Positions 1 to 19,095 of a stretch of 22,020 nt of DNA are shown here, in pieces. The first letter of the stretch is position 1, and each line of letters opens with the position of its first letter. The stretch is from a virus. The translations under genes were made by a program, and so were the position numbers. The notes beneath the pieces are model-generated. The model searched no databases. It worked only from the letters and a program-made list of their open reading frames with translations, and was not told the origin of the DNA. The DNA is taken from positions 1-22,020 of IMG/VR virus record IMGVR_UViG_3300015241_000035. One strand, given 5' to 3'.

Positions 1-129
1 GACATCCCCCGGCCCTTGATAGGTCGCCACCCCTCCCGGCGCCCCCTTCCCCGCCCCCGTCAACGGGACTTGCGCGCAGGCGCTCCAGCTAACCAGCAGC
101 GCGAAGAGGAGGGATGTGATGCGGAGCAT
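1..129 (-). CDS. Exported fibre-like protein, N-terminal fragment (runs off left edge)
   Basis: This is an open frame from an ATG at 129 to the first base of the window (43 codons), with no stop. It opens with MLR, a hydrophobic core LLFALLVSW, and a likely signal peptidase I site SACA before QVP. The following residues, VPLTGAGKGAPGG then YQGPGDV, are rich in Gly/Pro; from memory, such a segment is common near the start of tail or surface proteins of alphaproteobacterial phages. It begins 10 bp after the stop of the upstream gene in the same direction, so it is probably co-transcribed. A cysteine lies inside the putative cleavage region, but the preceding residues (W-S-A) do not form a good lipobox. 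The function of the missing part cannot be judged. The signal peptide is clear; the fibre role is inferred from context. Confidence 0.7.
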   Translation of the reverse strand, partial: MLRITSLLFALLVSWSACAQVPLTGAGKGAPGGVATYQGPGDV

Positions 130-139
130 GGTCGAGGAC

Positions 140-1159
140 CTATTGTTGAACATAGGTGACATTGCCAGCGATCAAGGACGTGCCGGACTGCAACAGACAT
201 AGCGCGGATGCCGCCGTGGTGACGCCGACCGATCCATTGCCGCTGCCCTGGGTAAAGCCGCCATTGGCCGCCAGAGACATGCCGCTGGCCGCCGTCGTCG
301 AGCCCCAGATCGCATGCTGGGCCGATGCGCAGGCGCCGCCCGTTCCATCGATGAAACTCAACTTGATGGCCGTATCCGTGATGGCCGAAATCGAGCAGAC
401 GTAAATCACGGTCGATCCGGACAAGGGGATGAGGGAGACTGGGCCGCCGGATGTCGTCGAGAACGGCGCGTTGAGTTTGATTTTGGAATTGCAGGGGTCG
501 TCGCTGACATAGCCGATGCGGGCGGTGCCGGATGGAACTGATGCTGCGATTAAAGTAGCGAGATTATTCCCGGGAATTACATCGATAGGGAGTGCCCCAG
601 TCCCGGCGACCGTTGCGTTGATGTTCGTTCCACCGACCTGGGTGACATTGGTTGCACCCCCAGATCCGCCACCGCCGCCTCCGGATCCCGTTGGCAACCC
701 GGAGCCGCCGACCATATTCACCGTGGTCGTCGACGTCGAGGTGATGCAGGTCAATTGAGTATTGGCGCCGACTGTGAACGCAAACCATGAGTTGGGCGGA
801 ATCAACTGATCGGAAGTCGTGGCCGATGCGCCGAGTTTGCAATAGGCGCCATTCGTGGCACCGACATTGCTTGCGATGACTACGGCCCCGGTCGGAAGCG
901 TTCCCATGACGCCGCCCGTCGTGACGCTGATCGGCGTGCCGGTTGATTGGATGGTTGGAAAGCCCGTGATGGACGCTGATACCGTCGCATTGACGCAGAG
1001 CTTGAGCGTGGAATCGACGGTCAGATAAGCGAGGCTGTCAGTAGCGCTTTTCCCCGTACCGCAACCGCTCGGTAATAGAACAGGAGAACCCTGAGCATGA
1101 ACCTGTCCGATCATGCCAGCAAAGCAAAGCAGCGCTGCCGCAATTAATTTGCGAAGCAT
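140..1159 (-). CDS. Exported glycine/serine-rich phage protein, fibre-like
   Basis: 339 aa. I chose the ATG at 1159 over an in-frame start at 1201 because AAAGGAG lies just upstream and because the signal peptide begins here: MLRK, a hydrophobic stretch AAALLCFAGMIG, and cleavage at VHA before QGS. The mature part is rich in Thr, Ser, Gly and Ala and looks like beta-structure. A glycine-rich linker sits near residues 160-170 (encoded around 660-690) and separates two halves. The second half has several cysteines (DPCNSK, VYVCS, GACAS, ALCLL), which would suit an oxidising periplasm. I recognise no catalytic motif. It is probably a virion-surface or secreted protein of the fibre group, since it sits in the same late transcript as others with the same kind of leader. 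Its exact role is unknown. Confidence 0.75.
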   Translation of the reverse strand: MLRKLIAAALLCFAGMIGQVHAQGSPVLLPSGCGTGKSATDSLAYLTVDSTLKLCVNATVSASITGFPTIQSTGTPISVTTGGVMGTLPTGAVVIASNVGATNGAYCKLGASATTSDQLIPPNSWFAFTVGANTQLTCITSTSTTTVNMVGGSGLPTGSGGGGGGSGGATNVTQVGGTNINATVAGTGALPIDVIPGNNLATLIAASVPSGTARIGYVSDDPCNSKIKLNAPFSTTSGGPVSLIPLSGSTVIYVCSISAITDTAIKLSFIDGTGGACASAQHAIWGSTTAASGMSLAANGGFTQGSGNGSVGVTTAASALCLLQSGTSLIAGNVTYVQQ

Positions 1160-1201
1160 GGTGATGTCTCCTTTGAGGAAAGTTTTAGAATATGGGGACA
1201 A

Positions 1202-1220
1202 CTGCCAGATGCGATGGCAG
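1202..1220. other. Small inverted repeat in a 159-bp gap
   Basis: CTGCCA at 1202-1207 and TGGCAG at 1215-1220 form a 6-bp stem with a 7-nt loop. They lie in the 1160-1318 gap, in which I see no gene. On the minus strand the stem is followed by TTGTCCCC rather than a T-run, so it is not a convincing intrinsic terminator. It could be an mRNA-processing or stability hairpin ahead of the 339-aa gene, or chance. Confidence 0.25.
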
Positions 1221-1318
1221 CGCTACCGGTTCGGTTATTTCTCAGTCTTGATGCGGCGCCACGCGGCCGGGGTGACCGTTCAGTGCTACGGCCAAGGCAG
1301 CGGCGAGGTGATTCAAAC

Positions 1319-1702
1319 CTAAGTCATGCTGCCCGGCAGAAAGCAGCGAATCTGGTTCAGATGCCCATCCCGCCGATACGGCCAGACCATGGTCGTTCCG
1401 GCGCGGTTCGGACCATCGACCACGGCGCTCTCGGGCACGTCGACCCATTCGCCCTCTAGCCGGACGCGGTAATGGCCGTCCTTGGTTTCCCAATCGACGT
1501 CGTCGAGCCGTAGCGCATCGGAGCCATCGCAGCAGGGCGATTTCACCTTGCTCGAAAGACCCATGAACCAGCCGTCGAGTTCGGGACGGGCGACGTCGTG
1601 GGCGCGGGCCGCATGCCAGGCGAACATGCTGGCTACAACTGCGAAGACGATGATCAGGAAGCGGCGGATCGTGCGTGGACTGTCGTGTTCGATCTTACTC
1701 AT
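1319..1702 (-). CDS. Small periplasmic protein with CC motif, unknown function
   Basis: 127 aa. The N-terminus has basic residues (TIRR), a hydrophobic segment FLIIVFAVVASMFAW and an ARA site before HDVARPELDGWF, which reads as a Sec signal peptide or signal anchor. The mature part has a CCDGSDA motif near residue 57, then a beta-rich stretch with repeated V-W and R-L-E-G-E-W patterns, and a late single cysteine (IRCFLPG). Three cysteines in an exported protein suggest one disulfide and a possible metal or redox site, but no named family is certain. From memory, similar short proteins occur in Bradyrhizobium-type genomes. Its start overlaps the end of the upstream gene by 8 bp (ATGAGTAA), so translation is probably coupled. 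Confidence 0.75.
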   Translation of the reverse strand: MSKIEHDSPRTIRRFLIIVFAVVASMFAWHAARAHDVARPELDGWFMGLSSKVKSPCCDGSDALRLDDVDWETKDGHYRVRLEGEWVDVPESAVVDGPNRAGTTMVWPYRRDGHLNQIRCFLPGSMT

Positions 1703-2006
1703 CGGAGTATTCGCGATCTATGCCGCGGGTGCCTTTGATGAATCCTTGGCCACGCCGCAACTCATCGTACCACTTCATCAGAAGGCCGATTTGCACTTCC
1801 TGGACTGCGACTTTGCCGAGCGTCTGACTGAAGGCCTTGAACTCGGTTTTCATTTCAGTGAGTTCTTTGGTCAAGGCCTCGAGCGTGAGGCTCATTCCCG
1901 TTTCGTGGCCGCCGCGGCGATAGAGAAAGGCTGCTGCAACCGCCAGCGCGCCGCCGACTGTTAGAAGGTCGCCGAGTTTAATCGTCCATTCGAATGTCGG
2001 TATCAT
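1695..2006 (-). CDS. Single-pass membrane protein with coiled coil, possible lysis accessory
   Basis: 103 aa. Residues ~10-28 (LGDLLTVGGALAVAAAFLY) form one transmembrane helix followed by RR. Residues ~38-70 are rich in Leu, Glu and Lys with heptad-like spacing (LEALTKELTEMKTEFKAF) and look like a coiled coil. One helix plus a coiled coil resembles inner-membrane spanins and XhlA-type lysis proteins in outline only; I see no family signature. The start is the ATG at 2006, right after a purine-rich GAGATGGA. A long inverted repeat at 2015-2063 abuts this ribosome-binding region and could influence its translation. It is translationally coupled to the periplasmic protein downstream. Confidence 0.7.
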   Translation of the reverse strand: MIPTFEWTIKLGDLLTVGGALAVAAAFLYRRGGHETGMSLTLEALTKELTEMKTEFKAFSQTLGKVAVQEVQIGLLMKWYDELRRGQGFIKGTRGIDREYSDE

Positions 2007-2014
2007 TCCATCTC

Positions 2015-2063
2015 TTTCTAGAGGTAAACCAAAGCCGCCGCCTCATAGGATTTACTCTAGAAA
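2015..2063. promoter_or_regulatory. 13-bp inverted repeat before the coiled-coil gene; possible RNA pseudoknot
   Basis: TTTCTAGAGGTAAA (2015-2028) pairs with TTTACTCTAGAAA (2051-2063) over 13 bp with one bulged G. The loop between them is 22 nt. Part of the loop (CCAAAGCCGCCGC, 2029-2041) can pair, less perfectly, with 2067-2082 (GCGGCGCC then TTTTTGG) in two 5-bp blocks. The order arm A, arm B, arm A', arm B' is that of an H-type pseudoknot or of two mutually exclusive hairpins. It lies in the 102-bp gap between the outer-membrane protein and the coiled-coil gene, and ends about 8 nt before the latter's ATG. It could terminate, attenuate or gate translation. There is no T-run next to it on the minus strand. 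Confidence 0.45.
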
Positions 2064-2108
2064 ACTGCGGCGCCGTTTTTGGTTCGGCACCGCGAATTGC
2101 TTGTGAAG

Positions 2109-2783
2109 TCAGAAATGATAGCTGAACCCGAACGTCCCGCGGTTCTCCGTGCTGACGATCGCCGGAACGCCGGGAATGGCGGATACGTTGGTCGCGCCAT
2201 ACTGTGCATTGAGGTAGTCGACGTCGATCGTGAACCGGCTGTTCGGCACGAAGAAATGAGCCGCCGCGCCCGCGCAGTAGCCTGTCAGCGCGCCGTTCTG
2301 GCAGGCGCCGATCAGGACCGTCGGGACCGCAGTCGAGATCGGGCCGGGCAAGATGATTGGCGCAATATTGAACATCGTCGCCAGGTTGCCGCCGAACTCG
2401 ACGCCTTCGAAGGCGAAGAACTTGTTCGATTGCGTGAGCGTCAGTCCGCCGATGTTCGGGTTCTGCTGGCCGACGGCGTAGTCGCCTTTGGCCTTCACTC
2501 CGAGCCAATAGGTGCCGTTGTAGAACTGATATCCGCCGTTGATGCCCATGTACGTGCCATTGGCGCTGAGACTCGCCAGGTTGATCACGTTGACGCCGGA
2601 ACCGGAGCCGGATAGCTCGGCGCCCAGGAAGAAGCCGGAACAGCCGGTGGCGTCGCATGGGGCTTTCAGCGGGGCAAACGCCGGTGCCTTGATGATCGGG
2701 GCGGCGTTCATATCGGCAGCATAGGCGGCCGAGATCATTCCAAGGCCTGCCATGAAGGCAAGCAGTATCGTTCGCAGTTTCAT
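2109..2783 (-). CDS. Outer-membrane beta-barrel protein, Omp25/31-like
   Basis: 224 aa. I chose the ATG at 2783 because of CAGGAG upstream and the signal peptide that follows: MKLR, hydrophobic TILLAFMAGLGMI, and AYA before ADM. The mature chain has alternating hydrophobic and polar stretches (GINGGYQFYNG, YWLGVKAKGDY, FFAFEGVEFGGNL, FTIDVDYLNAQYG) and ends FGFSYHF. A terminal Phe on a final beta-strand is the known recognition signal for the BAM complex. This pattern fits small alphaproteobacterial barrels of the Omp25/31 type. Four cysteines (CDATGC, ACQNG, GYCAG) are unusual for such barrels. Within a phage late region its role could be altering the host surface or blocking superinfection, as proposed for lambda Lom-type proteins. 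That is inference. Confidence 0.8.
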   Translation of the reverse strand: MKLRTILLAFMAGLGMISAAYAADMNAAPIIKAPAFAPLKAPCDATGCSGFFLGAELSGSGSGVNVINLASLSANGTYMGINGGYQFYNGTYWLGVKAKGDYAVGQQNPNIGGLTLTQSNKFFAFEGVEFGGNLATMFNIAPIILPGPISTAVPTVLIGACQNGALTGYCAGAAAHFFVPNSRFTIDVDYLNAQYGATNVSAIPGVPAIVSTENRGTFGFSYHF

Positions 2784-2827
2784 TTGCGTGTACTCCTGAG
2801 TTGAGATTTTGGAAGGTTTGTGGACAA

Positions 2828-2858
2828 TGACCGGGATCGCGCGCGGCGACACCGGTCA
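2828..2858. terminator. Hairpin after the gp49-like gene
   Basis: TGACCGG (2828-2834) and CCGGTCA (2852-2858) form a perfect 7-bp stem around a 17-nt GC-rich loop. It lies in the 84-bp gap between the gp49-like gene (stop at 2868) and the start of the outer-membrane protein. On the minus strand TTGTCC follows, not a run of T, so it is at best a weak intrinsic terminator. It may separate lysis-region transcripts from the outer-membrane gene. Confidence 0.3.
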
Positions 2859-2867
2859 GGTTATCTG

Positions 2868-3230
2868 CTAGCGGAGGGCTTCGTTGAAAGGAGCCCGGCC
2901 GGACAGCGCATTCTTCAGGGCATAGCCTTCCAGCGCCCAGATCTGCTTGCGAGCGTCCTCACGGGCGATCTTGCCGCCGAGTTCGAGATCGTAGTTCTCG
3001 GGGCTTGCGCACGCGCTCTTGCCGACGAGGGTGAAGCCGTTCTTGAGCGTCAGCACGCAGATCGTGAGGCACTTCAGCGCTTCCGAATGCGGCTGGTTGA
3101 ACAACTCTGATGCACGGCCCCACGCCTCGGAGGCGATCTGCGTGTCGATCAGTTCCGGCGTCAGGCGCGGTGCGGTCTTTCCTTTGCGAACAATCTCTTC
3201 CTCGATCGCAGTTTCGTCTTTGGTGGTCAT
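2868..3230 (-). CDS. N4 gp49 / Sf6 gp66 family phage protein
   Basis: 120 aa. I recognise the conserved core of the phage family named after N4 gp49 and Sf6 gene 66: an early APRLTPELID segment (about residues 20-29), TICVLTLKNGFTLVGKSAC (about 56-74), then ASPENYD, a G.KIAR block and KQIWALEGY near the end. The family is small, cytoplasmic and common in tailed phages, often near the lysis or late-accessory genes. No biochemical role is established that I know of. The start ATG at 3230 follows AGGAAG. There is no signal peptide, unlike many neighbours. The family assignment is strong; the function is unknown. Confidence 0.88.
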   Translation of the reverse strand: MTTKDETAIEEEIVRKGKTAPRLTPELIDTQIASEAWGRASELFNQPHSEALKCLTICVLTLKNGFTLVGKSACASPENYDLELGGKIAREDARKQIWALEGYALKNALSGRAPFNEALR

Positions 3231-3279
3231 CGGTTCTTCCTATGCGGGATATTGCCGGAATCCGTCCGGCGCGGAATTA

Positions 3280-3639: not shown

Positions 3640-3640
3640 C

Positions 3641-4834: not shown

Positions 4835-5023
4835 ATGATTTACGCGATCACGGCGGCCGCTGCCGTCATTATTATTGGACTCATTGTCTCGACATCGGCC
4901 TGCGCCAAGCACCGATGTGATCTCTCCGAACAGGAGATGGCGGCGCTTCGCAACTATCGCGTCGAATATAGTTATTGGTCGGTTAAACCAGCTCATTTTC
5001 ACATCGCGGAAACAGACCGCTAG
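4835..5023 (+). CDS. Small plus-strand membrane or exported protein
   Basis: 62 aa on the strand opposite its neighbours. A very good ribosome-binding site (CGGAGGG) lies 6 bases before the ATG, which is the main reason to accept it. Residues 2-18 are hydrophobic (IYAITAAAAVIIIGLIV), followed by STSACAKHRCDLS, which could be a signal-peptide end, or a poor lipobox at Cys23. The remaining ~35 residues are polar. There is no positive charge before the hydrophobic stretch, so orientation is uncertain. The gene fills the only gap between the fibre genes and the endolysin. Its stop overlaps the stop of the convergent fibre gene: the bases CTAG at 5020-5023 give TAG on both strands. Its function is unknown; it looks like a moron. 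Confidence 0.7.
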   Translation: MIYAITAAAAVIIIGLIVSTSACAKHRCDLSEQEMAALRNYRVEYSYWSVKPAHFHIAETDR

Positions 5024-6693
5024 GTGTGATAGTGACAACTGCCAAATACTGTCCCGGCAGTTCCAAACTGAGCGGCAGTGATGTTTGCGGATGTCGTTGA
5101 GCTTCCTTGAAACAAACCTATCTGGCTTGAATTTGGGTTGATCACGGCTCCGACGAAGACATTTGCCGCCGTGAGCCCGGTTACCGTATAAAAACCAATC
5201 GAGCAGCTTGCAAAATCATTTGCCGCATTTGCCGAACTCACCGGAAGTCCGGAGATTGAGACATTTCCGGTCGGGCTTCCAGTCCAGCCCGAAAGGGTGA
5301 TGGAAAACCTCGCAGTGACCTGCCGACCAATCTGTTCGTAAGAGCCGACCTGAAACGTATAGGCCGGAGTTCCTACCGTGGCGCTCGTCGTAATCGCCGG
5401 TGTCCATGATCCCGCGGTGTAGGTGGGGAAACCGCCGGCACCGTTGGCGGCGATAGCCAGCGCCGTTTGGACACCTGCGCCTGAACCACTCAACCCTGTT
5501 GCGATCGGCAATCCCGTTGCATTCGCCAATATGGCCGATGATGGCGTTCCAAGTGCTGGCGTTATAAGCGTTGGCGAAGTCGCGCGGACATAGGCTCCCG
5601 TACCGGTCGGTGCAGTGCCATTGTTGAGCAGCGAACCACCGGTGAGATTGAGATTGCCGGCGGCCGGCGCCGAGGTTGAATTGCCGATGACCCAACCGCC
5701 CGCCTGGCTTATCCAGCCCCGGCATGTCGTATTGGTCTGGTCATATAGGAAAAAGACTGTCGTACCAGCACCGGGACCGCAAGCGCCATCGGCGTCGAGT
5801 CCGAATATCCATTGATAGGTGCCATTTTGCCATGCCGAATAGGCATTGCTGTTCACACCGGATGAAAGGGTCGAGATGATAGCGGTACCGCTTCCGCCTG
5901 AAAATGATTGATTCCCGGTCCAGATATTGGCATGAGCCAGATTCAGACTTGCAATTACATTTCCACTGGTCGGCGATATTGTCAGCGTGCCATCGCTGTT
6001 GACGATCGAAAACACCGGCGCCGTGCCATTGATGAAAACGCTGGTCGCATTCAGCGATCCCGGACCTTTGTCACCTCCGGTTGGGGATCCGATGACGACG
6101 CCGCCGTCATTGTTGAACTTGACGATCGAGGCCATCATCGTCGAATTGTCGGGTGTGGTCGCGATATCGCAGTAGGTGCCGGCCGCACTTCCCGAAGCCC
6201 AGGTCTGATCGGCGAAACATCGGAATGCGGCGAACGGACCGACATTGGCCAATCCATTATAGCCGAACGCATTCAGGCTGACGATTTCCGAAGTGCTGGT
6301 CAGCGTGGTCGGGCTGCTGACCGTGCCGTTCGCGCGCACGCCTGAGAAATGCGAGCTCGCGTCGAAGGAATCAATCTCAAATCGCCCGGCTAATGTTGCA
6401 GGCGCGCTTCCCTGTAGCAGCGTTCCGCTCTGCGGCGTCGGTAGCGAGACTCCATTGAGATTGATTCCCTGATAGGCCGAAAAGATATTGGTCGTCAGCA
6501 GGAACGGGATCGACGCATTCTGGTCAAGCGTGACCTGACGCGCAACCAATGGCGTAATCGCGCCAACATGATTGTCCGCATAGGAGAGATTAATTTCGGC
6601 ATTGAGCGCGGTCGGTGTCTTCTTGGTGCCGGTCTGAGCATGTGCCGAGGTGACCACGAATAAACCAGCGATCAAAAATGCAATTCGTTTCAT
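5020..6693 (-). CDS. Exported tail-fibre-like protein with N-terminal DN-ITP module
   Basis: 557 aa. The start ATG at 6693 lies 3 bp after the stop of the upstream fibre gene. A Sec signal peptide is clear: MKR, hydrophobic IAFLIAGLFVVTSA, and AHA before QTG. Residues ~25-52 (K-T-P ... I-N ... DN ... ITP ... R) match a short module seen at the start of many phage fibre-like proteins, and also match the upstream gene. The body is Ser/Thr/Gly-rich beta-type sequence. Near the middle is the familiar phage block GTGAYVRATSPTLITPALG, followed by ATGLP and GLSGSGAGV. The C-terminal ~120 residues look like a separate globular domain (VGSYEQIGRQVTARFSITLSG). The likely role is receptor contact or surface decoration. 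The leader is the odd point, because fibres normally assemble in the cytoplasm. Confidence 0.82.
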   Translation of the reverse strand: MKRIAFLIAGLFVVTSAHAQTGTKKTPTALNAEINLSYADNHVGAITPLVARQVTLDQNASIPFLLTTNIFSAYQGINLNGVSLPTPQSGTLLQGSAPATLAGRFEIDSFDASSHFSGVRANGTVSSPTTLTSTSEIVSLNAFGYNGLANVGPFAAFRCFADQTWASGSAAGTYCDIATTPDNSTMMASIVKFNNDGGVVIGSPTGGDKGPGSLNATSVFINGTAPVFSIVNSDGTLTISPTSGNVIASLNLAHANIWTGNQSFSGGSGTAIISTLSSGVNSNAYSAWQNGTYQWIFGLDADGACGPGAGTTVFFLYDQTNTTCRGWISQAGGWVIGNSTSAPAAGNLNLTGGSLLNNGTAPTGTGAYVRATSPTLITPALGTPSSAILANATGLPIATGLSGSGAGVQTALAIAANGAGGFPTYTAGSWTPAITTSATVGTPAYTFQVGSYEQIGRQVTARFSITLSGWTGSPTGNVSISGLPVSSANAANDFASCSIGFYTVTGLTAANVFVGAVINPNSSQIGLFQGSSTTSANITAAQFGTAGTVFGSCHYHT

Positions 6694-6696
6694 TGC

Positions 6697-8592
6697 CTAA
6701 TGCACCGAATTCGGCATTGAAGCTACGCCGTCCCACCAATCCCATGTCCCGCTGGTGGGAATGAGATTGTGCACATTGGATACCATACCAAAGGTCCCTT
6801 GCGACGTCAGGCGTTGCAAGCTCGGCCCTCCCATGTTTCCAACGCCGGAAACGTTCGTGTAAGCCTGTGGGCCAAACGATGAGAAGGTGTTGTCGGTGGT
6901 GGTGATGAGTGTCGAGTTTACGCTGGTCGTGGTCCATTCGATCTTCGCCATCACGCCGCCGAGCGATTTATGATAGCAACCGAGCGAGATGGCCTCGAGA
7001 TCGAGATCGGTCCAGCCCCATAGCGTGCCGATCGGATTGTTGAACTGCAGGATCAACGGCGTCAGCAGGGGCGGATTGCAATGTCCTTGCGCAGCAATAT
7101 ACTCATCCGAGTTCTGATGTAACTGACCTTGCACGATGGATGGTATGAATGCGCATGTAGGCAATGCCCAATAGATCACATCACCATTATTTCCCAGCTT
7201 GTTAAGACTGACTGAAACCGAGGTTGCACCTGCAGTGATTGTGCGTGTCACCGGCTCGAATTGATAGCCGCCAAATGCCACACCGGTGCCGACCGAACTA
7301 CTGGTCGTCCCCGAGCTATCGGTAATCGATATGCTCCAGGTATTAGCGCCGCCCTGCACGGTCTGGTTGGCCGCCACGCCGCATGAGATCGCAATACCTT
7401 GGAAGCGACCGACCTGATTGGCCGGTACGGTCCAAGTGAGAGATTCCGTTCCCGCCGCCCCTCCCCTGGTTCCCAAAACCCGGATTGCGCCAGGATAGCT
7501 GTGAGCGGAGAAATCATCGGGAAAGGATGTCAAGCTGGTCGTAATCGACCAGCCATCCGGTCCGATATTCAGGCCGCCGCTCGTCCTGGCGATGGGGTAA
7601 AGCACTGCAGCGGTGCTGACGGTGGGAGATACTCCTATAAAATATCCTTGCACAGTGATCGAAGTATTCGGGACAACAGTAATGACGCGAGCGCCCATGA
7701 TATAGCAACTATTCGCCGTGCCGCCAGAACCCGGGGAGCAGCCACCCGCACTACCAAAGGTAGCTGTGCAGGCCACCGTGCCTGCATTGCAGCTAATATA
7801 GCCGCCTCCGGAGAAACCCCAGAACGCATCATAGGCGGCAGTCGTGAATGACGCCGAGGTCGCCACGGCGATGATGTCACCTACTTTGATCTGCTGTGTG
7901 TTTGCGCAGATGAAAGTAGGACTGGCGTTCGTAGTGCTGAATGACGCACAACTCGCCGGGGTTTGCGGGCCCGTGCCGGTAGCATTCTGTTTGACGTTTA
8001 GCACGTCGCCAGTGATCATCTGCCATTGCACATTCGGCAGAAGATTATCGACACTACCGACGCCGGGACCCGCATTTGTTGATGTGCCACATGACCATGC
8101 ATCGGTCGATTGCGCATAGTTGACATGCTGGCCGAGACTATCAAGGCAGTTTGGGACAACCGACCAAATCGGTGTACCCGCAACATCAATCGGGGTCGCA
8201 TGCGCGGCCGGACTTGCCGCGATCTGTGCTACACTGGCGGATCCGGCTAGATTGGAAAAATTAATCTGGGTGCAGACTGGGGACCCTGTCCCGGTCGTAA
8301 TCGTTTGAATCCATAGATTGGATGCACATGCGACCGCGAAGATGCCACCAAGCCCACCGTTCGTCGCCGGCGGAATATTCGCGCTCGGGATGACCGAGGT
8401 AACCGGCAAATAGGCGCTGGTGATTTCGGTGGTGACGAACCGCAGATCGAACGGCGTGATCCGGTTCTGATCGTTATCCGGAAACAGCGTATTGATATCC
8501 GTGCGAATTTGCGCGGGCGTCTTTTGCGCATATGCCGGCCATGCCATCAGGCACAGCAAAGCGATCGCCACTCGGATGTGATGCAGAATCAT
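6697..8592 (-). CDS. Exported tail-fibre-like protein
   Basis: 631 aa, starting at an ATG at 8592 with no strong ribosome-binding site, 24 bp after the upstream stop. The signal peptide has a hydrophobic core VAIALLCLMAWPA and an AYA site before QKT. Residues 24-51 (KTPAQIRTDIN, PDN, ITPFDLR) form the same short module as in the downstream fibre and in many phage fibres. The middle contains Cys-rich loops (SCNAGTVACTATFG, GGCSPGSG) and beta-type repeats. The C-terminal ~170 residues (from about YIAAQGHCNPPLLTPL) may be a separate binding domain. It is probably a surface fibre or decoration protein. Cysteine content and leader both suit folding in the periplasm. No enzymatic motif was seen. 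Confidence 0.8.
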   Translation of the reverse strand: MILHHIRVAIALLCLMAWPAYAQKTPAQIRTDINTLFPDNDQNRITPFDLRFVTTEITSAYLPVTSVIPSANIPPATNGGLGGIFAVACASNLWIQTITTGTGSPVCTQINFSNLAGSASVAQIAASPAAHATPIDVAGTPIWSVVPNCLDSLGQHVNYAQSTDAWSCGTSTNAGPGVGSVDNLLPNVQWQMITGDVLNVKQNATGTGPQTPASCASFSTTNASPTFICANTQQIKVGDIIAVATSASFTTAAYDAFWGFSGGGYISCNAGTVACTATFGSAGGCSPGSGGTANSCYIMGARVITVVPNTSITVQGYFIGVSPTVSTAAVLYPIARTSGGLNIGPDGWSITTSLTSFPDDFSAHSYPGAIRVLGTRGGAAGTESLTWTVPANQVGRFQGIAISCGVAANQTVQGGANTWSISITDSSGTTSSSVGTGVAFGGYQFEPVTRTITAGATSVSVSLNKLGNNGDVIYWALPTCAFIPSIVQGQLHQNSDEYIAAQGHCNPPLLTPLILQFNNPIGTLWGWTDLDLEAISLGCYHKSLGGVMAKIEWTTTSVNSTLITTTDNTFSSFGPQAYTNVSGVGNMGGPSLQRLTSQGTFGMVSNVHNLIPTSGTWDWWDGVASMPNSVH

Positions 8593-8616: not shown

Positions 8617-10482
8617 TCAGCCGCGATATTGCGCCGACAGCAGCATGAAATTTTGCGTGCCGTTCCACGTGGACACTGTAGCGCCTAAGCCATTCTCAAG
8701 TGCTGTGATGACATTGATGCCGATCGCCGGCGCGGCTTTATAACTGCCAGCAATTGAATTATTGAAAGTATTGCCGGCTGTGCCGGCTCCATTGGAGAAA
8801 ACAGTAATGCCATTTTTTCCGCTGAGCACCGTCGTCGAATTATAACCTATGCCGACTTGGCCGGCCGCTGTCTGGCTATTGCCTATACTGCCCCCGACAA
8901 AAGCCGTTGTATTGAGATCGAACGGTTCTTCCGATAGGCCGGTAAAAATCGTGATGCTATTGGCTGAATTGCCATTGGCCGCCCGCACCGTATTCGGAGT
9001 ATAGGACCATGTCGCCGTATTATCGCCGCCGATCATCGTGATCTGCTGGCGGTTATAAAAATTCCAGACTCCCCACTTCCGACTTTGGCCGTAGGTCTTG
9101 TAGGCCGAGACCTGACCCGCGCTGGCATCGATCGAGAGGGACCCGACCATCGTGCACTGGTTGGCCGGGATCGTGTAGGACGACAGCCCATTGTAGGCGA
9201 TGTAGGAATTGGCATTCACCCAGATGCCCTGCAGGCGAATGATCTGCGCCGAGCCCGCGCCACTGCCACGCGAACCGGATCCGGCCGAAACATTCGACCA
9301 GGAGGGTCCGGCAACCAGCGTCGGAACGCCGTTGTTGGAGAACACGCATTCGTCCTGAATCGTGTTCGAGGTCGAGCCCGACGCGGTCAACGTCGTCGTC
9401 AACTCGCTGAAGGTGGTATTGACAAAGGCCGAGCCATTGAAGATCGGAATCTGATTACCGACGAACGGCGAGTAATAGACTGTGACCGCGCCGACCACGT
9501 CGCCGGTCTGGATCACGTCGCCGGAGGCCTGCCCGATCAGATTGAGATAGCCCTGCGGCGGCACCAGCGACCCGGACGAGGTCGATCCGCCGCCCGAGGC
9601 GGCCGGGTTGACCAGATGGAATTGAACGTTCGTAGCATCATAGGTGATCATCGGCGTATTGGCCGGGCCGATCTCCCCGCCGGTCAGCGGTGCCGGGCCG
9701 GTCGGGGTATCCTTGATGAGCGCGATCGCGGCGCCGCCCGAAACCGCCACCGTGACAGGTCCATTATTCGCCACAGCGGCCAAGAACTGGATCACCGTGC
9801 CATCTTGATGCGAGAATGCGCTATCGGTGACCGCAATCGCGTTCGGTGTGCCGGTAGCCAGCGCCGCCCAGAACACGCCGGTCGGGCCTGTGGAGGCCGT
9901 CAGCTTCGAATAGACGGTATTTCCGAGGCTATCCTGGACCACCATCAGGTAGATACCGTTACCGTAGATGACGGCGCAGCCATTCTGATCTAACGGAACC
10001 GGGTTCTGATTATTCGTGGTTTCAGCGGCATCCTGCCAGGTCTGCTTAAAGGTCTGGGTGTTCGGAATGAAGAAGCTGACCGACCCGCCGGCCAGCGATG
10101 AATTGATGGAAGTACTTGCAACAGCTACGGAAAATCCGCTTCCCGTGCCTCCGATATTGGCCGCCGCGGCGCTCAGGACGTCGCCGACGACATATTGAAT
10201 GCCGGGATTCAGGACCGTGACCTGGGTGACAATCCCGCCCGAAACCGTTATATTTGCGGTCGCCTGTGAACCTGAACCGCCGGTCAGGGACACACCACCA
10301 TAGGCGCCATTTGTGTAAGCCGATCCGCCCGTGATGGTCCCGAGCGTGCCGAGCATCCCGTTGATGCCGGTCTGGGCTTGAAAGCAGGTCATCCCGGGCG
10401 GCAAAATTGTTGCCTGGGCGAGGACCTGCACGCAGGACAAAACGACCGCGCAAGCGGCGATGAGGAAGGTTTTGAATTTCAT
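8617..10482 (-). CDS. Large exported fibre-like protein, first of the fibre cluster
   Basis: 621 aa. A longer in-frame start exists at 10566, but the ATG at 10482 begins a typical signal peptide: MKFK, TFLIAACAVVLSCV, and VLA before QAT. The longer form would bury this leader and run antisense to the plus-strand gene, so I use 10482. Residues ~50-125 (GGSAYTNGAYGGVSLTGGSG ... GGIVTQVTVLNPGIQYVVGDVL) form a beta-repeat block that I know from many phage virion proteins. A Gly/Ser linker (GGGSTSSGS) then separates an N-terminal half from a beta-rich C-terminal part. Base composition falls toward the C-terminus (about 48% GC by hand count at 8701-8820 against about 61% at 9541-9660), as often seen in exchangeable receptor-binding domains. 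Confidence 0.82.
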   Translation of the reverse strand: MKFKTFLIAACAVVLSCVQVLAQATILPPGMTCFQAQTGINGMLGTLGTITGGSAYTNGAYGGVSLTGGSGSQATANITVSGGIVTQVTVLNPGIQYVVGDVLSAAAANIGGTGSGFSVAVASTSINSSLAGGSVSFFIPNTQTFKQTWQDAAETTNNQNPVPLDQNGCAVIYGNGIYLMVVQDSLGNTVYSKLTASTGPTGVFWAALATGTPNAIAVTDSAFSHQDGTVIQFLAAVANNGPVTVAVSGGAAIALIKDTPTGPAPLTGGEIGPANTPMITYDATNVQFHLVNPAASGGGSTSSGSLVPPQGYLNLIGQASGDVIQTGDVVGAVTVYYSPFVGNQIPIFNGSAFVNTTFSELTTTLTASGSTSNTIQDECVFSNNGVPTLVAGPSWSNVSAGSGSRGSGAGSAQIIRLQGIWVNANSYIAYNGLSSYTIPANQCTMVGSLSIDASAGQVSAYKTYGQSRKWGVWNFYNRQQITMIGGDNTATWSYTPNTVRAANGNSANSITIFTGLSEEPFDLNTTAFVGGSIGNSQTAAGQVGIGYNSTTVLSGKNGITVFSNGAGTAGNTFNNSIAGSYKAAPAIGINVITALENGLGATVSTWNGTQNFMLLSAQYRG

Positions 10483-10491: not shown

Positions 10492-10944
10492 ATGAGCCGA
10501 ATTTCGCGACGCGGCGTCTGGTTCGCCGGCATCCTGCTGCTCTTGTTCTGGAGTCTTGCTTCGCATCCCAACTGGGTCGAGACGGCATCAGCGCCCGCCG
10601 GAATGATCGTCTATCTCGCGTTCGTCTATCGCTGGCTGTTCCCCGAGAAGATCACCATGCGCGGAATATGGTTCAGCGCAACGCTTTTCATTTGCTGGTA
10701 TTTTGCGTTTTATACCGAATGGACCAACAACAACTGGGCGCTCGCCGGCATGATCGTATTTCTGTTTTTCTTCCACGGCCTATTGTGGCCGGAGGAAATT
10801 GCCGCCCTGGAGCGTCGCCGGCAGCGTGGAACGGTAGAGATAATTTCCGAGTGCAGTTTCCGTCGGGTTTCCGAGCGACCGATTGATCAGCCGCTCCGTC
10901 AGCGCATTGCTGCGCAACCCAGCGCCGGCGCCCCGCGCCAATAA
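10492..10944 (+). CDS. Four-helix membrane protein made of two tandem copies; plus-strand moron
   Basis: 150 aa from the ATG at 10492; a weak GGA lies 6 bases upstream. Longer in-frame starts upstream run antisense to the fibre signal peptide and look artificial. Residues 7-54 and 57-103 are an internal duplication: both begin RG(V/I)WF(A/S), contain AGMIV(Y/F)L, and end (F/W)PE(K/E)I. Each copy holds two hydrophobic helices, so the protein should cross the membrane four times. The final ~45 residues are polar and basic, and are encoded antisense to the 3' end of the 619-aa gene. It starts only 9 bp from the divergent fibre start. I know no matching family. A lysogenic-conversion or lysis-modulating role is possible, but only inferred. 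Confidence 0.78.
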   Translation: MSRISRRGVWFAGILLLLFWSLASHPNWVETASAPAGMIVYLAFVYRWLFPEKITMRGIWFSATLFICWYFAFYTEWTNNNWALAGMIVFLFFFHGLLWPEEIAALERRRQRGTVEIISECSFRRVSERPIDQPLRQRIAAQPSAGAPRQ

Positions 10945-12639
10945 CGCGCTGCCGAGCGTCGCTCCGACGCCCATTGCCGCCGCACTCATCGGCACCTCGC
11001 CGGACAGAATCCCAGCGCCCGCCGTACCCGCCCCGCCGAGCAGATGCATCAGCATGCCGCGCTCGGCCGTCCCGGAGCTCGGCGGTTCCTTCATGAAACG
11101 CTGGCCGATGTCCGATAGCGTCTTGAGGTCCCCACCACCGCCATAGGCCGAGCCATGCGTGCCCTTGAACGAAGTGTTGACCCTCCCCTGCAGCAGGGCT
11201 GGGCTGATATCCCCGGTCGGCGCTTTCGCCACCAGTGGCTCGACCGTGCGCAGATTGCGCCATTGCTGACGCGCCTGCCGCAGATCACCGATCACATCCG
11301 GCGCCGCCGAACGCTCCATTGCCCCGTCAAGCGCATCGCGGATATCGCGCGCGGAGTTACGGATGTTCGGATTCTGCGATTGCATCGCCCGATCCAGCGG
11401 CGTGCCGCGGCGGGTCAGATTCTGATAGATTTCGCCCGTGATCGTGTTGGTATGCGGGTCGACCAGCCCTGCAATGTTTTGTACTTGGCGGATCAGCGGT
11501 TCGACTTCGCCCGGCGTCATGGTCGCCTGCGCGTCATGAATGGTCTGGCGAAGCTCGACCGCGAGTTGCGGATCGGCATGGATCACCGGCGTCCGCGCAG
11601 CAACGCCCTCAAACACATTTCCGATCCGATCGCGGGCCTGCCCCATGACCTGAGGCGTGATGCGCTCGGCATTCTCGCCGAACGTATTGGCGACCGCCCG
11701 ATTGAAGCCGGTCTGCATTTCCTCTCGATGGGGACCACCGCCGCTGCCCGGGATCTTGTTGAGGACCGAATTGAGAAACCGCACGGTCGGATTCGACGAA
11801 ACTTCGCCGGTGCCGACCGGGATATTGAACTGATTCCGCGCGGTCGCGGCGAGATTCGCCGTCTCCGGACTGACGCGACCGACAAGGGCATTTGCCGCCC
11901 CACCAGTCGCTCTCAATGCGACTGGGAGCGCCGCGGTCGCGGCCATACCCATCAAGGGATCGCCGGTCTCATCGGTCACCGCCTGTCCCAGCGCGCCGGT
12001 GGCACCGAGCACCGGTGCCTCCCGAATGAGCGATGATGTCAAGCCGTTGACGGGTGCCGCCGCACCTCGCACCCCAGGGCCAAGGCTTCCGACGACGGTC
12101 TGGATGCCCGTTTGCGCGAGCTTTTGGCCCTGCGTCGTCGGAACATATTCACCGGTCCGCAAGAGCAGCGTATTGGAAGCTTCCGCGCCACTCGGCAGTA
12201 CATGCTCCGGATTGAGCGCGTTCTCGAGGCCAGCGAGTGCACCTGGCCGGTTTTCGGAAGCAGCCTTGCGCGCGGCCAGATCGGCTTGCACATCCTCCAG
12301 TGGCTTGCCGGTCGCAGCGCTGATGCCACGCGCCATCAGATAATCGACGACATGTCCGGTATTGCCGACTGCGCCGACCACGTCGCCCGCGCCTTTGATG
12401 GCACCGGTCGCGATATTCTTGAGCGGCCCCCAGATGCCTTCATGCTGTGAATTGGCGAGCATGCCGGGCAGACCAGTTCGCTCTACGGCCGTGGCCGGCT
12501 TTTTCTCTTCGGTCAGCACTGATGGTCCAGCGAGCCACGTCTTATCGAAATCGCTGGGATCGAGCACGCGCGTACCCGTAGCGGCCGGCATTGATGCCGC
12601 GCCCGATGTTCCCCATACGGAATCGAAATCATCGGCCAT
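10780..12639 (-). CDS. Large DNA-ejection/internal virion protein, P22 gp16 position
   Basis: 619 aa, starting at 12639 with a TAATG overlap on the previous gene. No signal peptide. The N-terminal ~60 residues are acidic and probably disordered (DDFDSVWGTS, then DPSDFDKTW). Two Gly/Ala-rich amphipathic regions follow: residues ~75-95 (IATGAIKGAGDVVGAVG) and the stretch ~525-570 (LLGGAGTAGAGILSG, AAMGVGATLGSALL). The middle is helical, with a phage-like NPTVRFLNSVLNKIPGSG segment. Size, place at the end of the ejection group, and membrane-active-looking segments fit a P22 gp16-like protein that leaves the head and enters the host envelope with the DNA. The assignment is by position and character, not a clear motif. 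The last 165 bp overlap the plus-strand membrane gene tail to tail. Confidence 0.75.
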   Translation of the reverse strand: MADDFDSVWGTSGAASMPAATGTRVLDPSDFDKTWLAGPSVLTEEKKPATAVERTGLPGMLANSQHEGIWGPLKNIATGAIKGAGDVVGAVGNTGHVVDYLMARGISAATGKPLEDVQADLAARKAASENRPGALAGLENALNPEHVLPSGAEASNTLLLRTGEYVPTTQGQKLAQTGIQTVVGSLGPGVRGAAAPVNGLTSSLIREAPVLGATGALGQAVTDETGDPLMGMAATAALPVALRATGGAANALVGRVSPETANLAATARNQFNIPVGTGEVSSNPTVRFLNSVLNKIPGSGGGPHREEMQTGFNRAVANTFGENAERITPQVMGQARDRIGNVFEGVAARTPVIHADPQLAVELRQTIHDAQATMTPGEVEPLIRQVQNIAGLVDPHTNTITGEIYQNLTRRGTPLDRAMQSQNPNIRNSARDIRDALDGAMERSAAPDVIGDLRQARQQWRNLRTVEPLVAKAPTGDISPALLQGRVNTSFKGTHGSAYGGGGDLKTLSDIGQRFMKEPPSSGTAERGMLMHLLGGAGTAGAGILSGEVPMSAAAMGVGATLGSALLARGAGAGLRSNALTERLINRSLGNPTETALGNYLYRSTLPATLQGGNFLRPQ

Positions 12640-15859: not shown

Positions 15860-15862
15860 GAT

Positions 15863-17374
15863 CTAGGCCGCATGCTTGATCCCGGTGGCGAAGGCCTGGT
15901 TCAATCCCGTCGGCATGCCCGCCGACCATGACAGTTCGAATACGAAATCTCGGCCCATTCCGAGGCCCCGCCAGCGCAGCATCGATCGGAAATGGCCGGC
16001 GCTGATCAAGGTCTTGACCCGGTAATTGCCGAACGTCGCGCCGCCATCCTTGGAGACCCGTAAGCCCACCTGCGGCGGTCCGATCTTGGTCTGCGGCCCG
16101 AAACCATCCGAAAATCCATCCGAGAACGCATTGGAGATTAGAGGCCCCTCGGCCGAGCCCGCCAGCATGCCGGTCTGCATGTCGGCTATGAATTCGGTGA
16201 TCGTCAGATTTTTCAATTCATCGACGATATGCGGAAATGAGCGGATGCAGGAAATCGGCTGGCCGGCATCATTCATCACATTCTGATCGATCGCGTAGAT
16301 CTGCCCGGTTTCCCAATCCATCCCAACATTGGTGTCGTAGGCGAAGGCGTGGAAGCACACCCGTTCGCGATTGAGGTTGCCATTATCGTCGGTCCAAGCC
16401 CGCTGGTGCCATAGCTTGGTCGCGAGATCGTAGCCCCAGGACTTGTTCGCCGACGGGAAATGAGCCACCACGAAAGTATGACCGCCCTGCTGATAGGTAT
16501 AGCAGATCGCATCGGTGAGTTTCGGATAGGTCAGCCACTCGTCTTCCAATGCAAAGGTCGAGATCTTCTTGGCGCCATAGCCTTCGATCATCAGCATGAT
16601 CGCGCGACCGTCCTTGTCCTGCGAGAGCCAGAACGCGTTGACATCCGTCGTGCAGATCGAATAAGGCGCGATCGTGCCATGGGGCACGAACTGCCCGAAC
16701 ACTTCCTCGAGCGGAAAGATCGGATCGCCGGCATCGAACCATGGCTCGGCCGTCATGGTGCCGATCGGCCAGAGCGTGCGCTGGCAGGCGATCAATGCTT
16801 GGATCGGATCGCCGAACGTGCCCTTGGAGGCCGTGTCCAGCGCATTGAACGCGACCTGCTCCGACAGCGAACAATAGAAATTGTTGGTCCCGATCTGATT
16901 GAAGAAGAAGAACGTGTCGAAGAACTGCACCCGCGTCGAACCCGTGAACAGTCCGGTCGTATCGACAATCTGCGTCATCTGGCGCGATGTCATGTTGATC
17001 TGATAACCGAGCGGCGAATTGTCGACCAGCACGATTTCGTTGCCGTTCGATTGGCCGTTGTCGTCCATCGAGACCGGCGTGAACCGGTTCTGGATCAGCC
17101 CTAGATTATTGAACTGCCAGTTCCGATCGATGTAGTAGACGTTCGGCCCGACCACGCCGTAGAGATCACCGTTCGAGACCCGGAACACGCCACGACCACG
17201 ACCCTGCACCGGCGGCGCGCCGAGCGCGCGCAAGCCCGGGCGCGGGTAGTGCGTGAACGGCGATTCCGGATCGGTCTCGTCCGGGTTGTTCTCCGGCCAC
17301 AGATTAACGCATCTTTGGGCATTCGCGATCAGTTCGCGCGCCACATAGGCACCGGCGCTGAGCGGGATCTTCAC
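15863..17374 (-). CDS. P22 gp10-like tail hub / packaged-DNA stabilisation protein
   Basis: 503 aa with a GTG start; GTGA overlaps the upstream stop by 4 bp. P22 gp10 (472 aa) is the cytoplasmically assembled hub that closes the portal and carries tailspikes and needle. Here the N-terminus (QRCVNLWPENNP ... TPGLRA-like PRPGLRALG, then GRGRGVFRVSNGDLYGVVG) has the layout of gp10 proteins and the first blade of a beta-propeller. Typical late blocks follow: SANKSWGYDLATKLWHQRAW, TGQIYAIDQNVM, and near the C-terminus SKDGGATFGNYRVKTL with RWRGLGMGRDFVFEL. No signal peptide. The family call is fairly strong and is supported by neighbours on both sides. Confidence 0.85.
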   Translation of the reverse strand: MKIPLSAGAYVARELIANAQRCVNLWPENNPDETDPESPFTHYPRPGLRALGAPPVQGRGRGVFRVSNGDLYGVVGPNVYYIDRNWQFNNLGLIQNRFTPVSMDDNGQSNGNEIVLVDNSPLGYQINMTSRQMTQIVDTTGLFTGSTRVQFFDTFFFFNQIGTNNFYCSLSEQVAFNALDTASKGTFGDPIQALIACQRTLWPIGTMTAEPWFDAGDPIFPLEEVFGQFVPHGTIAPYSICTTDVNAFWLSQDKDGRAIMLMIEGYGAKKISTFALEDEWLTYPKLTDAICYTYQQGGHTFVVAHFPSANKSWGYDLATKLWHQRAWTDDNGNLNRERVCFHAFAYDTNVGMDWETGQIYAIDQNVMNDAGQPISCIRSFPHIVDELKNLTITEFIADMQTGMLAGSAEGPLISNAFSDGFSDGFGPQTKIGPPQVGLRVSKDGGATFGNYRVKTLISAGHFRSMLRWRGLGMGRDFVFELSWSAGMPTGLNQAFATGIKHAA

Positions 17375-17832
17375 GTTTTGATTTCGGTGGGGGTGATGAA
17401 ATAGAACGTGGCGCGCGCATTATGCGCCAGCGAAAATCCCTGATTGACGGCAAGCTGATTGATCTTGCCGCCTGGTGTTGGATAGATCAGCAGCGCGTTG
17501 GCAAGATCGTCATTGAACACGGTCTGGGTCTGCCCCGGTTGCAGCGATGACAACAGCGCGCCGGAAGCCGCCGGCACCGTATCGAATTCGTTCCAGTCGG
17601 AGTCGAGCTGTAGCGCGGTCGCCTGATTGGCGCCGGTCGCCGCCAGTCCGCTCGCGACAGTCGCGGCCGAGAGCGATGCGGTCGCCGCATTCAGCAGATT
17701 GAGCAGGAACTGATAGCCGTCGAAACTCAGCGCATAATCGGTCGCGCTCGGATTCTTCGGATCAGGCGCCTTGACGAAGGGCGATTGCGGCGGCGGAAGG
17801 TTGCGGCCGGAGAATCCGACGACCGATCCCAT
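17371..17832 (-). CDS. Small structural-type protein before the tail hub
   Basis: 153 aa from the ATG at 17832, which overlaps the upstream TGA as TGATG; a GTG one codon earlier is possible. The N-terminus is Pro-rich (GRNLPPPQSPFVKAPDP). A helical Ala-rich middle (FLLNLLNAATASLSAATVASGL) is followed by a beta-rich C-terminal part (LLSSLQPGQTQTVFNDDLANALLIYPTPGGKIN ... ARATFYFITPTEI). The last part resembles the small beta-domain found in the 155-aa protein at 18628-19095 in character: both describe a LxIYPTPG or LTVYPAVA strand, and both end with a short beta-strand. It is probably a minor virion or decoration protein. No named family is certain. Confidence 0.7.
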   Translation of the reverse strand: MGSVVGFSGRNLPPPQSPFVKAPDPKNPSATDYALSFDGYQFLLNLLNAATASLSAATVASGLAATGANQATALQLDSDWNEFDTVPAASGALLSSLQPGQTQTVFNDDLANALLIYPTPGGKINQLAVNQGFSLAHNARATFYFITPTEIKT

Positions 17833-18035
17833 CACCCGATATCTTTCGGATCTTCCCAGACCAGTGACAGATGCCGCTGCGAGGCCTCGCCCAGCGCTTC
17901 GATCGCGCTTGCGTGCTCATTCCTCGCCGCGTTGTCGCGCCGCGGCTTCAGCGACGTGTAGAACTTATCGCCATCCTTCCAGCCATAGACGCAATCACGC
18001 GTCTTGCGCAGATGCGAGTTAGGATTGATCGGCAT
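17832..18035 (-). CDS. Small unrecognised late protein
   Basis: 67 aa. It begins inside the end of the upstream gene (16 bp overlap) and ends with a TGATG junction, so it sits in a translationally coupled chain. The sequence is basic and polar (LRKTRDCVYGWKDGDKFYTSLKPRRDNAARNEHASAIEALG), with a conserved-looking YGWKDGDKFYTSLKP strand. No membrane segment. The function is unknown. Confidence 0.6.
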   Translation of the reverse strand: MPINPNSHLRKTRDCVYGWKDGDKFYTSLKPRRDNAARNEHASAIEALGEASQRHLSLVWEDPKDIG

Positions 18036-18237
18036 GGTGGACCGGTGCTTTCGGGAGCGGTGGAAACCACAGGATCACGGCCTTGCGCCGCGCCCGCCGG
18101 ACCGAGGCCAGTGCCTCTTCCGGATTCTCGAAGGCGATCGCCGGTCTTATCGGGGAGTCCGGCGGATAGCGGCTGACGAGAAAGCCGCGGCGCGGGTCAT
18201 GCCAGCCGTAGAATTGATGGGCTTGGGGCTGGCGCAT
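18019..18237 (-). CDS. Small unrecognised late protein
   Basis: 72 aa from the ATG at 18237, which overlaps the preceding TGA (TGATG) as at other junctions in this operon. A longer form from a TTG at 18294 has a good-looking AAGGAG upstream, but it would overlap the previous gene by 58 bp; I prefer the short form without certainty. The chain is basic, with HQFYGWHDPRRGFLVSRYPPDSP in the first half and a helix EEALASVRRARRKAV followed by ILWFPPLPK. Both this protein and the next contain a Y-G-W-x-D motif, which may mean they are related. The function is unknown. Confidence 0.55.
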   Translation of the reverse strand: MRQPQAHQFYGWHDPRRGFLVSRYPPDSPIRPAIAFENPEEALASVRRARRKAVILWFPPLPKAPVHHADQS

Positions 18238-18614
18238 CACGAGCGCTTCGTCACACCCCATGCTTGGGCCGATCCAGTTGCTACCTTTCGACAAATCGCT
18301 CCTTCGCCAATCGAATGATTAACGGAGGCTATTTGCGTTCCATTTTCATCAAGCAATTCATAACCATCAATGCCTTGACCATAAATCTCAACGATATCGC
18401 CGATATTAAACGATGATGATAATTGAAACACCACCTGCGCCTGTTGAGACGGCGTATAGGGCAACACGGATGCTAATACGATGAGCACATCCGTAGTAGC
18501 GGACGGGGATATCATTGCTGGAGATGCATTGGATCCACCGTTTAGCGAGATAATCTCGAACTTGGCCTTTGTTACGATCTCGGTAATCGGGCCATCAATA
18601 GTAAATGTCGTCAT
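18237..18614 (-). CDS. AT-rich late gene, unrecognised beta-type protein
   Basis: 125 aa, ATG at 18614 with AAGGGAG upstream. The predicted chain is beta-rich (TTFTIDGPITEIVTKAKFEII, DVLIVLASVLPYTPSQQAQVVFQLSSSF, GDIVEIYGQGIDGYELL) and has no signal peptide. By hand count 18301-18420 is about 39% GC, against about 68% at 18061-18180 in the next gene. That contrast indicates a recent insertion from another source. It lies between gp4-like and gp10-like genes, so it is probably a minor virion decoration. No family is recognised. Confidence 0.7.
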   Translation of the reverse strand: MTTFTIDGPITEIVTKAKFEIISLNGGSNASPAMISPSATTDVLIVLASVLPYTPSQQAQVVFQLSSSFNIGDIVEIYGQGIDGYELLDENGTQIASVNHSIGEGAICRKVATGSAQAWGVTKRS

Positions 18615-18627
18615 TGCTCAAACTCCC

Positions 18628-19095
18628 TTACGAAGCGCTCCAGACACCAGCCTTCACGCAGGCGAAGGCGATCTGGACATGGGTCGCGAGCCCACTCGGA
18701 AGCGTCGTATTATTATTGATCGTATCCTGTGCTGCTGTAGCCGGATTGTTGGCGACTGCGGGATAAACGGTCAGCGTCTGCGCTCCATTGTTGTAGAGAA
18801 TGATCTGCGTTCCTGGGACGCATGTGGGCAGGTTGACGCCGGTGCTCGCTGCGACCGTATCGGCCTCCAGAAGATAGACGCCCGCAGGCAATGGAGTCGC
18901 CGTGGCTTGCGTCGTGCCGGCCGCCGTGATGCCGTACTGATAGGCATAGTTCTGGCCTCCAGCCAATCCTAACAGCCACGTCCCATCCGGCGTCTGAAAG
19001 CCATTGACCGGCGGATTGCCGGTCACTGCGAATGCTGCGCCGACGGCCGCCGCGATCAATGCGCCGGCCAGCATATTGAGAATGGTCTTGAACAT
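18628..19095 (-). CDS. Beta-type virion-decoration-like protein with signal peptide
   Basis: 155 aa, ATG at 19095 with CGGAGA upstream. The first 23 residues (MFKTILNMLAGALIAAAVG, then AAFA before VTG) form a Sec signal peptide. The rest, PDGTWLLGLAGGQNYAYQYG, then ATPLPAGVYLLEADTVAASTG, VPGTQIILYNNGAQTLTVYPAV and a final CVKAGVW, is a small beta-sandwich pattern that I associate with phage structural proteins lacking a leader. It is the only exported protein in the head-tail region. Its place right after the gp4-like adaptor makes a virion role plausible, while the leader points to the periplasm. This conflict is noted among the findings. Confidence 0.75.
   Translation of the reverse strand: MFKTILNMLAGALIAAAVGAAFAVTGNPPVNGFQTPDGTWLLGLAGGQNYAYQYGITAAGTTQATATPLPAGVYLLEADTVAASTGVNLPTCVPGTQIILYNNGAQTLTVYPAVANNPATAAQDTINNNTTLPSGLATHVQIAFACVKAGVWSAS

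Follow-up and report, generated by a model that had tools for sequence, protein, structure and literature searches.

Sec-type leaders on the tailspike and fibre-like proteins of a podovirus fragment, and a possible periplasmic route to late assembly

Assembly of tailed phages is taught as a cytoplasmic process up to lysis. In phage P22 the tailspike gp9 is the last part added, and it can be added in vitro to particles that lack tailspikes; gp9 and the tailspikes of Sf6 (gp14), Pam1 and Pan3 are leaderless and fold in the cytoplasm. Here a related tailspike is described from a fragment of 22,020 bases that is catalogued as viral (IMG/VR record IMGVR_UViG_3300015241_000035; this whole stretch is called the window), in which all late genes lie on the minus strand. 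The 621-residue protein starting at position 10482 resembles these tailspikes in its head-binding fold, its position after a gp16-like ejection gene and, probably, its separate C-terminal body, but differs from them in having a Sec-type leader before the anchor, and a cysteine pair and a 73-residue insert within it. The leader sets it apart as a variant of the P22-type tailspike, leaderlessness being the usual and not the defining trait of that family.

Podoviruses of the PBR31, PAE2, P26218 and X14 type have a related gp10-like head-closure protein (Hc3), and their anchors are 33-51% identical to that of a leader-bearing protein in the viral locus L025 and are also matched by the window tailspike. 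Their tailspikes differ in that the anchor starts at Met1, without a leader and usually without an anchor cysteine. Exported proteins of related kinds have been described. The WceF protein of Pantoea stewartii is a bacterial tailspike-like enzyme with a P22-type head domain, exported by the twin-arginine translocation (Tat) system, which cleaves exopolysaccharide (PMC7949094). It is like the window tailspike in being an exported protein with such a head domain, but unlike it is encoded by a bacterial gene in a polysaccharide locus, uses Tat and not Sec, is a folded beta-helix trimer and belongs to no virion. Phage lambda encodes the signal-peptide-bearing outer-membrane protein Lom among its tail genes (PMC12309495), and the gp40 esterase of phage PBR31 is a phage-encoded protein with a signal peptide (PMC10975493). 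Like the window set, both are signal-peptide-bearing phage proteins encoded close to tail or lysis genes; unlike the window fibres, they are single exported accessory proteins that are not anchored to the virion.

Leaders of the late proteins and the tailspike anchor

The 27 window proteins were scored for signal peptides with a home-made tripartite scheme combining n-region charge, h-region hydropathy and a c-region matrix derived from known Gram-negative leaders. The original prediction had placed Sec-type leaders on eight minus-strand proteins, and all eight proved tripartite, with scores of 4.9-20.1 (Table 1); the remaining 19 score at most 0.5. Because only 1.6% of shuffled window N-termini reach 4.9, eight leaders among 27 proteins are very unlikely to be due to chance (binomial p ~8e-9). 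As a control, 353 core virion proteins from 80 relatives were scored with every start codon tried; 11 of them pass the threshold of 6, half of these being the glycine/alanine-rich gp7-like protein. The signal peptidase I pattern of positive n-region, hydrophobic core and AxA-type cleavage site is present, including the five quoted AxA-like/Q sites (ACA/Q, VHA/Q, AHA/Q, AYA/Q and VLA/Q), and no Tat-type motif was found in the fibre leaders of the window. The weakest leader, that of the 127-residue protein, is long and has an acidic n-region. As had also been predicted, every large fibre-like protein (621, 631, 557 and 339 residues) bears a leader, and by the same score the coat protein and the gp4-, gp10-, gp7-, gp20- and gp16-like proteins have none. 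The leaders are thus on outer parts, and not on parts of the procapsid interior or tail hub. Processing as lipoproteins by signal peptidase II was rejected, as there is no canonical lipobox ([LVI][ASTVI][GAS]C); the tailspike leaders hold ALSC or VLSC, with leucine at -2 and, in three of four, alanine at -3, and the invariant C17 leaves a small doubt on this rejection.

Judged from sequence comparison and modelling, the 621-residue protein is a tailspike. Its residues 130-194 match the start of a tail protein from the Pseudomonas phage PAE2 (41.5%, E 8e-4), and body residues 308-607 match the Pam5 'tail spike' (32% over residues 308-597). The same anchor domain in the leader-bearing L025 protein matches PAE2 (52%), the PBR31 'tail spike' and others. 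A profile built from all members of the anchor family, leaderless relatives included, matches the 'Tailspike head-binding domain' of Pam1 (7eeq, E 3.6e-11). An AlphaFold2 (AF2) model of the anchor domain, whose confident part (block means 82-91) is limited to about residues 107-176 of the domain model, gave VIA-align Z scores of 10.3 for Pan3, 9.2 for Pam1, 8.5 for Sf6 and 8.4 for P22; the top 14 rows (Z 10.3-7.2) are all tailspike head-binding domains, as are the best Foldseek matches. Pfam and PHROGs searches of the fibres found little except phrog_5342 ('tail fiber'), which matches the tailspike in the region of the insert. Synechococcus phage S-PM2 has a homologue of this insert within one of its virion structural proteins (51% identity), and PHROG tail-fibre and baseplate families match it as well.

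In leaderless phages the anchor begins at Met1. The predicted mature start of the window tailspike, QATILPPG, aligns with MATLLPNG-type starts (15 leaderless viral anchors), so that cleavage after VLA would restore the ancestral N-terminus. Among the orthologues, identity is 84% in the anchor and 38% in the C-terminus, a pattern that fits an anchor with a fixed partner followed by a variable receptor-binding part. In the sister contigs L048, L049 and L050, which are near-complete (46-60 kb), there is no second protein with this anchor, and the sole copy is leader-bearing.

Leader gain, module exchange and paired cysteines

Relatives were collected through Hc3, which gave 80 viral loci. The closest relatives that reach the fibre region are L047, L048 with its near-copy L050, and L049 (Hc3 about 76% identical). 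The tailspike orthologues in all of these bear leaders (scores 7.6-16.4), so that leader-bearing homologues exist in other phages and the leaders are kept across relatives. Within this family the leaders have drifted to a mean amino-acid identity of 61%, with a mean nonsynonymous divergence (dN) of 0.26 and pairwise synonymous divergence (dS) of 0.42-0.86, rough values from 22 codons, and have retained charge, core and the +1 glutamine. The next fibre is also leader-bearing in L047, L048 and L050, with unrelated leader sequences.

Across all fetched loci, 33 anchors of this type are leaderless, and leaders occur on it in three lineages: the family of the window, L047, L048 and L049; L025; and L016. 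A fourth gain involves another anchor. In the L015 protein starting at 2693, a leader precedes a domain of the T7 gp17 type, which begins at Met1, without a leader, in the cultured phages HTVC010P (Pelagibacter phage; fibre) and Carin1 (Cobetia phage; Dpo31). Behind this anchor L015_2693 has the same body as the 631-residue window protein (residues 162-630, E 5e-181), and the two leaders differ. The C-terminal bodies of the 557- and 339-residue proteins are likewise common to L015 proteins (for the former, residues 379-557 and the leader-bearing L015_5822, E 6e-93), the N-terminal parts differing and leaders again being present. N-terminal parts and bodies are therefore exchanged, and the leader is always kept. 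A pattern scan of viral contigs for relatives of the 631- and 557-residue fibres and the gp16-like protein found none, and a tail-anchor profile gave six matches in 385 alphaproteobacterial genomes, none with a leader. An origin of the fibres from host genes was considered and rejected, the 339-residue protein having no match in 196 genomes of the genus Bradyrhizobium.

Proteins oxidised in the periplasm tend towards paired cysteines, so that cysteine counts offer an independent sign of export. Even and odd cysteine counts stand at 23:5 in the mature proteins of the leader families and at 76:77 in leaderless proteins of the same contigs (Fisher p 0.001, indicative only, since the pattern had been seen in these data before it was tested); cysteine density does not differ between leader-bearing and leaderless proteins. 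Exactly two cysteines are present in five of six leader-bearing anchors, from two independent lineages and at different places, whereas 29 of the 33 leaderless anchors have none and four have one. The pair in the window anchor (C33 and C169) is missing from leaderless relatives; C379 and C443 make up a second candidate pair in the window tailspike. In the 631-residue protein the shared body holds 10 cysteines, all kept in L015_2693, and the unshared parts hold four and two, respectively, so each module seems to have its own cysteine pairs.

Other exported proteins of the window and its relatives

Downstream of the gp16-like gene, the window encodes three large fibre-like proteins, a GH19-like endolysin, a holin-like membrane protein and small genes; the gp4-, gp7- and gp20-like proteins were named from position and from homology among relatives. 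Coordinates are collected in Table 1.

Table 1. Leader-bearing proteins, tailspike domains and reference genes of the window
Feature	Position	Strand	Leader and predicted cleavage	Leader score	Remarks
621-residue tailspike with Sec leader	8617-10482	minus	residues 1-22 (10417-10482), VLA/QATILPPG	11.0	
Head-binding (tail-anchor) domain, residues 23-205	9868-10416	minus			alignment, AF2 model, Foldseek, VIA-align
73-residue insert in anchor, about residues 53-125	10108-10326	minus			interrupts head-binding domain
631-residue fibre-like protein with Sec leader	6697-8592	minus	8527-8592, AYA/Q	13.9	14 cysteines in mature part
557-residue fibre-like protein with Sec leader	5020-6693	minus	6637-6693, AHA/Q	20.1	6 cysteines
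339-residue fibre-like protein with Sec leader	140-1159	minus	1094-1159, VHA/Q	7.5	8 cysteines
Start of further leader-bearing protein	1-129	minus	73-129, ACA/Q	18.7	43 residues, cut by window end
155-residue small late protein	18628-19095	minus	19027-19095	13.0	between gp4- and gp10-like genes
224-residue outer-membrane-type protein	2109-2783	minus	2718-2783, AYA/A	12.0	
127-residue exported protein	1319-1702	minus	about 1601-1702	4.9	
P22-type coat protein, partial	21156-22019	minus			PF11651, E 7e-19
gp10-like head-closure protein (Hc3)	15863-17374	minus	none		phrog_578, E 1e-73; 80 viral loci
gp16-like DNA ejection protein	10780-12639	minus	none	-7.3	phrog_26400, E 5e-45

The 339-residue protein has leader-bearing relatives in five loci (L015_11047, L123_2729, L119_4035, L023_5495 and L025_12596), and the truncated protein at 129 has a homologue of 229 residues with the same leader, L015_11636 (E 2.7e-19). 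Adjoining this homologue is an 802-residue protein with a Tat-like leader (L015:12330-14738; MISKRKFLQNASLGVLLFVAQS), which raises the question of folded-protein export. The 155-residue protein belongs to a family that is leaderless in most relatives. In its close clade the window and L048 copies have a leader, the L047 copy has an unrelated one, and those of L002, L004 and L049 have none; the leader-bearing copies have 2, 2 and 0 cysteines and the close leaderless relatives 2, 3 and 1. The window holds a second member of the family at 17371-17835 (minus), so that the gene is duplicated, with one copy leader-bearing and the other leaderless.

The 224-residue outer-membrane-type protein matches L015_8795 (E 1e-144), and is thus found in the fibre cassette of two different podoviruses (L015:8795-9475 in the other), as an analogue of lambda Lom. 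By this analogy a host-surface role is likely for it. Of 61 genomes of the genus Bradyrhizobium, 3 contain distant matches to it. Two Bradyrhizobium genomes encode relatives of the 127-residue protein, as do three viral contigs. The original prediction had allowed that all eight exported proteins might join the virion; these two are probably not virion parts. The 62-63% identity of the 127-residue protein to its relatives in the two Bradyrhizobium genomes, together with the weak matches of the outer-membrane protein, suggests a host that is probably an alphaproteobacterium near Bradyrhizobium, a modest inference from gene similarity.

Further leader-bearing genes encode proteins of 383, 258 and 995 residues in the contig of L049 and of 1525 residues in that of L050. 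Others occur in less related phages, namely L015 (another podovirus type), L016, the 61-kb contig of L006, L023 and L025, and the sequenced Acetobacter phage phiAX1, in which two such proteins start at 17114 and 18083 of L012. A leader-bearing protein of 1525 residues (L124:3991-8568, minus) contains a GH5 cellulase domain, and one of 641 residues in phiAX1 (L012:18083-20008) a GH66 dextranase-type domain; both are possibly exported polysaccharide-degrading enzymes. Leader-bearing proteins with 'GNY..YP..G...'-like starts are present in L120 (from 1909, minus), L049 (from 66), L025 (from 3184), L129 (from 3864) and L094, those of L049 and L094 being 8-9 kb upstream of Hc3 on the side of the coat and portal genes.

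A proposed place of assembly and its alternatives

Export of the leader-bearing proteins to the periplasm, as predicted from their N-termini, is well supported, because the leaders are conserved across relatives, were gained repeatedly and are accompanied by paired cysteines. The reading that we consider fairly probable is that Sec export would be followed by periplasmic folding with disulfide formation and by attachment to finished particles at lysis. In this scheme the outer, receptor-facing proteins would be synthesised with a Sec leader and leave the cytoplasm, and signal peptidase would cut the leader, often at Ala/Gln, regenerating the ancestral N-terminus of the tail anchor. Folding, disulfide formation and, presumably, trimerisation of the proteins would then take place in the periplasm, while leaderless heads and the tail hub (coat, portal, gp4-, gp10-, gp7- and gp16-like proteins) would be assembled and filled in the cytoplasm as usual. 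Once holin, endolysin and spanin open the envelope, the cytoplasmic and periplasmic pools could meet, and the mature tailspike might dock on the finished particle through its head-binding domain. The interpretation offered in the original prediction thus stood as regards export; its joining of particles at lysis is supported indirectly, in that the head-binding domain of the tailspike directly follows the cleavage site and three sister contigs encode no other such tailspike. Docking is favoured by the strong conservation of the anchor, by the want of any other protein with it in L048, L049 and L050, and by the confinement of leaders to outer parts.

Several observations weigh against this scheme. 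The clade is known from sequence alone and has no cultured member. The PDB head-binding domain was missed by a profile restricted to the four leader-bearing tailspikes, the PDB link depending on leaderless relatives and on the AF2 model built on them, and the full-length AF2 model of the tailspike failed and was discarded (predicted local distance difference test score, pLDDT, 27.7). The leader-bearing anchor of L025 lacks the cysteine pair, and cysteine counts of homologues are not fully independent. L005 and L100/L129 have a leaderless tailspike together with other leader-bearing proteins, so leaders are not always tailspike markers. There is also a precedent for an exported enzyme that keeps a P22-type head domain, WceF (PMC7949094), which is itself among the fold matches of the anchor model (6tgf). 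It makes a free exported protein the strongest rival: the fibres would be polysaccharide-active proteins or decoys that stay off the particle, binding or stripping exopolysaccharide, cellulose or lipopolysaccharide around the lysing cell or blocking readsorption, with the anchor a stabilising relic. The GH66 and GH5 domains on leader-bearing phage proteins, typical of secreted enzymes, point the same way, and the decoy or free role raised in the original prediction is the better reading for those proteins of other phages. For the window fibres we hold it unlikely, although deserving serious consideration, since few parts of the tailspike are as conserved as the anchor, near-complete sister contigs have no other tailspike bearing it, and two anchor types that are unrelated, and native to different phage lineages, have both been retained behind leaders.

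The exported set might instead coat or alter the host envelope, in superinfection exclusion or adhesion, as lysogenic-conversion proteins like lambda Lom, whose gene is flanked by tail genes and active in lysogens (PMC12309495). The presence of the outer-membrane-type protein in the same cassette in the window and L015, and of integrases in some relatives (G589, G003 and G004), is in keeping with this; an integrase was not found in G588 and G590, however, and the genes lie in a late position directly after the gp16-like gene. Such a role suits the 224-residue protein and perhaps the 127-residue one, but not a conserved head-binding domain on large fibres, and for the set as a whole it is improbable. 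Export being deduced from the letters only, and the n-region of the 127-residue protein being atypical, the hydrophobic N-termini could also be non-functional or uncleaved, the segment being retained to act in the particle or membrane, or translation starting downstream. This is very improbable, given that charge, core and AxA-type pattern are retained despite sequence drift, that homologues bear unrelated leaders, that three of four orthologues have no methionine between leader and anchor start, and that cysteine pairing follows the leader.

Periplasmic maturation and attachment at lysis thus remains the preferred reading. In the open-access full-text literature searched, no description of leaders on tailed-phage fibres was found; tailspikes and fibres are known, but Sec-leader, paired-cysteine versions of them across several phage lineages were not found there, and there is a real chance that the leader-bearing fibres represent a new assembly route. 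Its broadest form, which we regard as evenly poised, is a split assembly in which capsid and tail hub would be built in the cytoplasm and a Sec-exported adhesion apparatus, disulfide-bonded in the periplasm, would be joined to them only at lysis, having evolved several times, in phages that infect soil bacteria (probably alphaproteobacteria), as ordinary genes for tailspikes and fibres acquired leaders of the host type. If so, the last step of assembly would shift in both order and place, infectivity would rely on the Sec, signal peptidase and Dsb systems of the host, and disulfide-rich fibres would be explained. Receptor-binding proteins of such phages might misfold when made in the cytoplasm without their leader, and in annotation a signal peptide would not exclude a virion protein.

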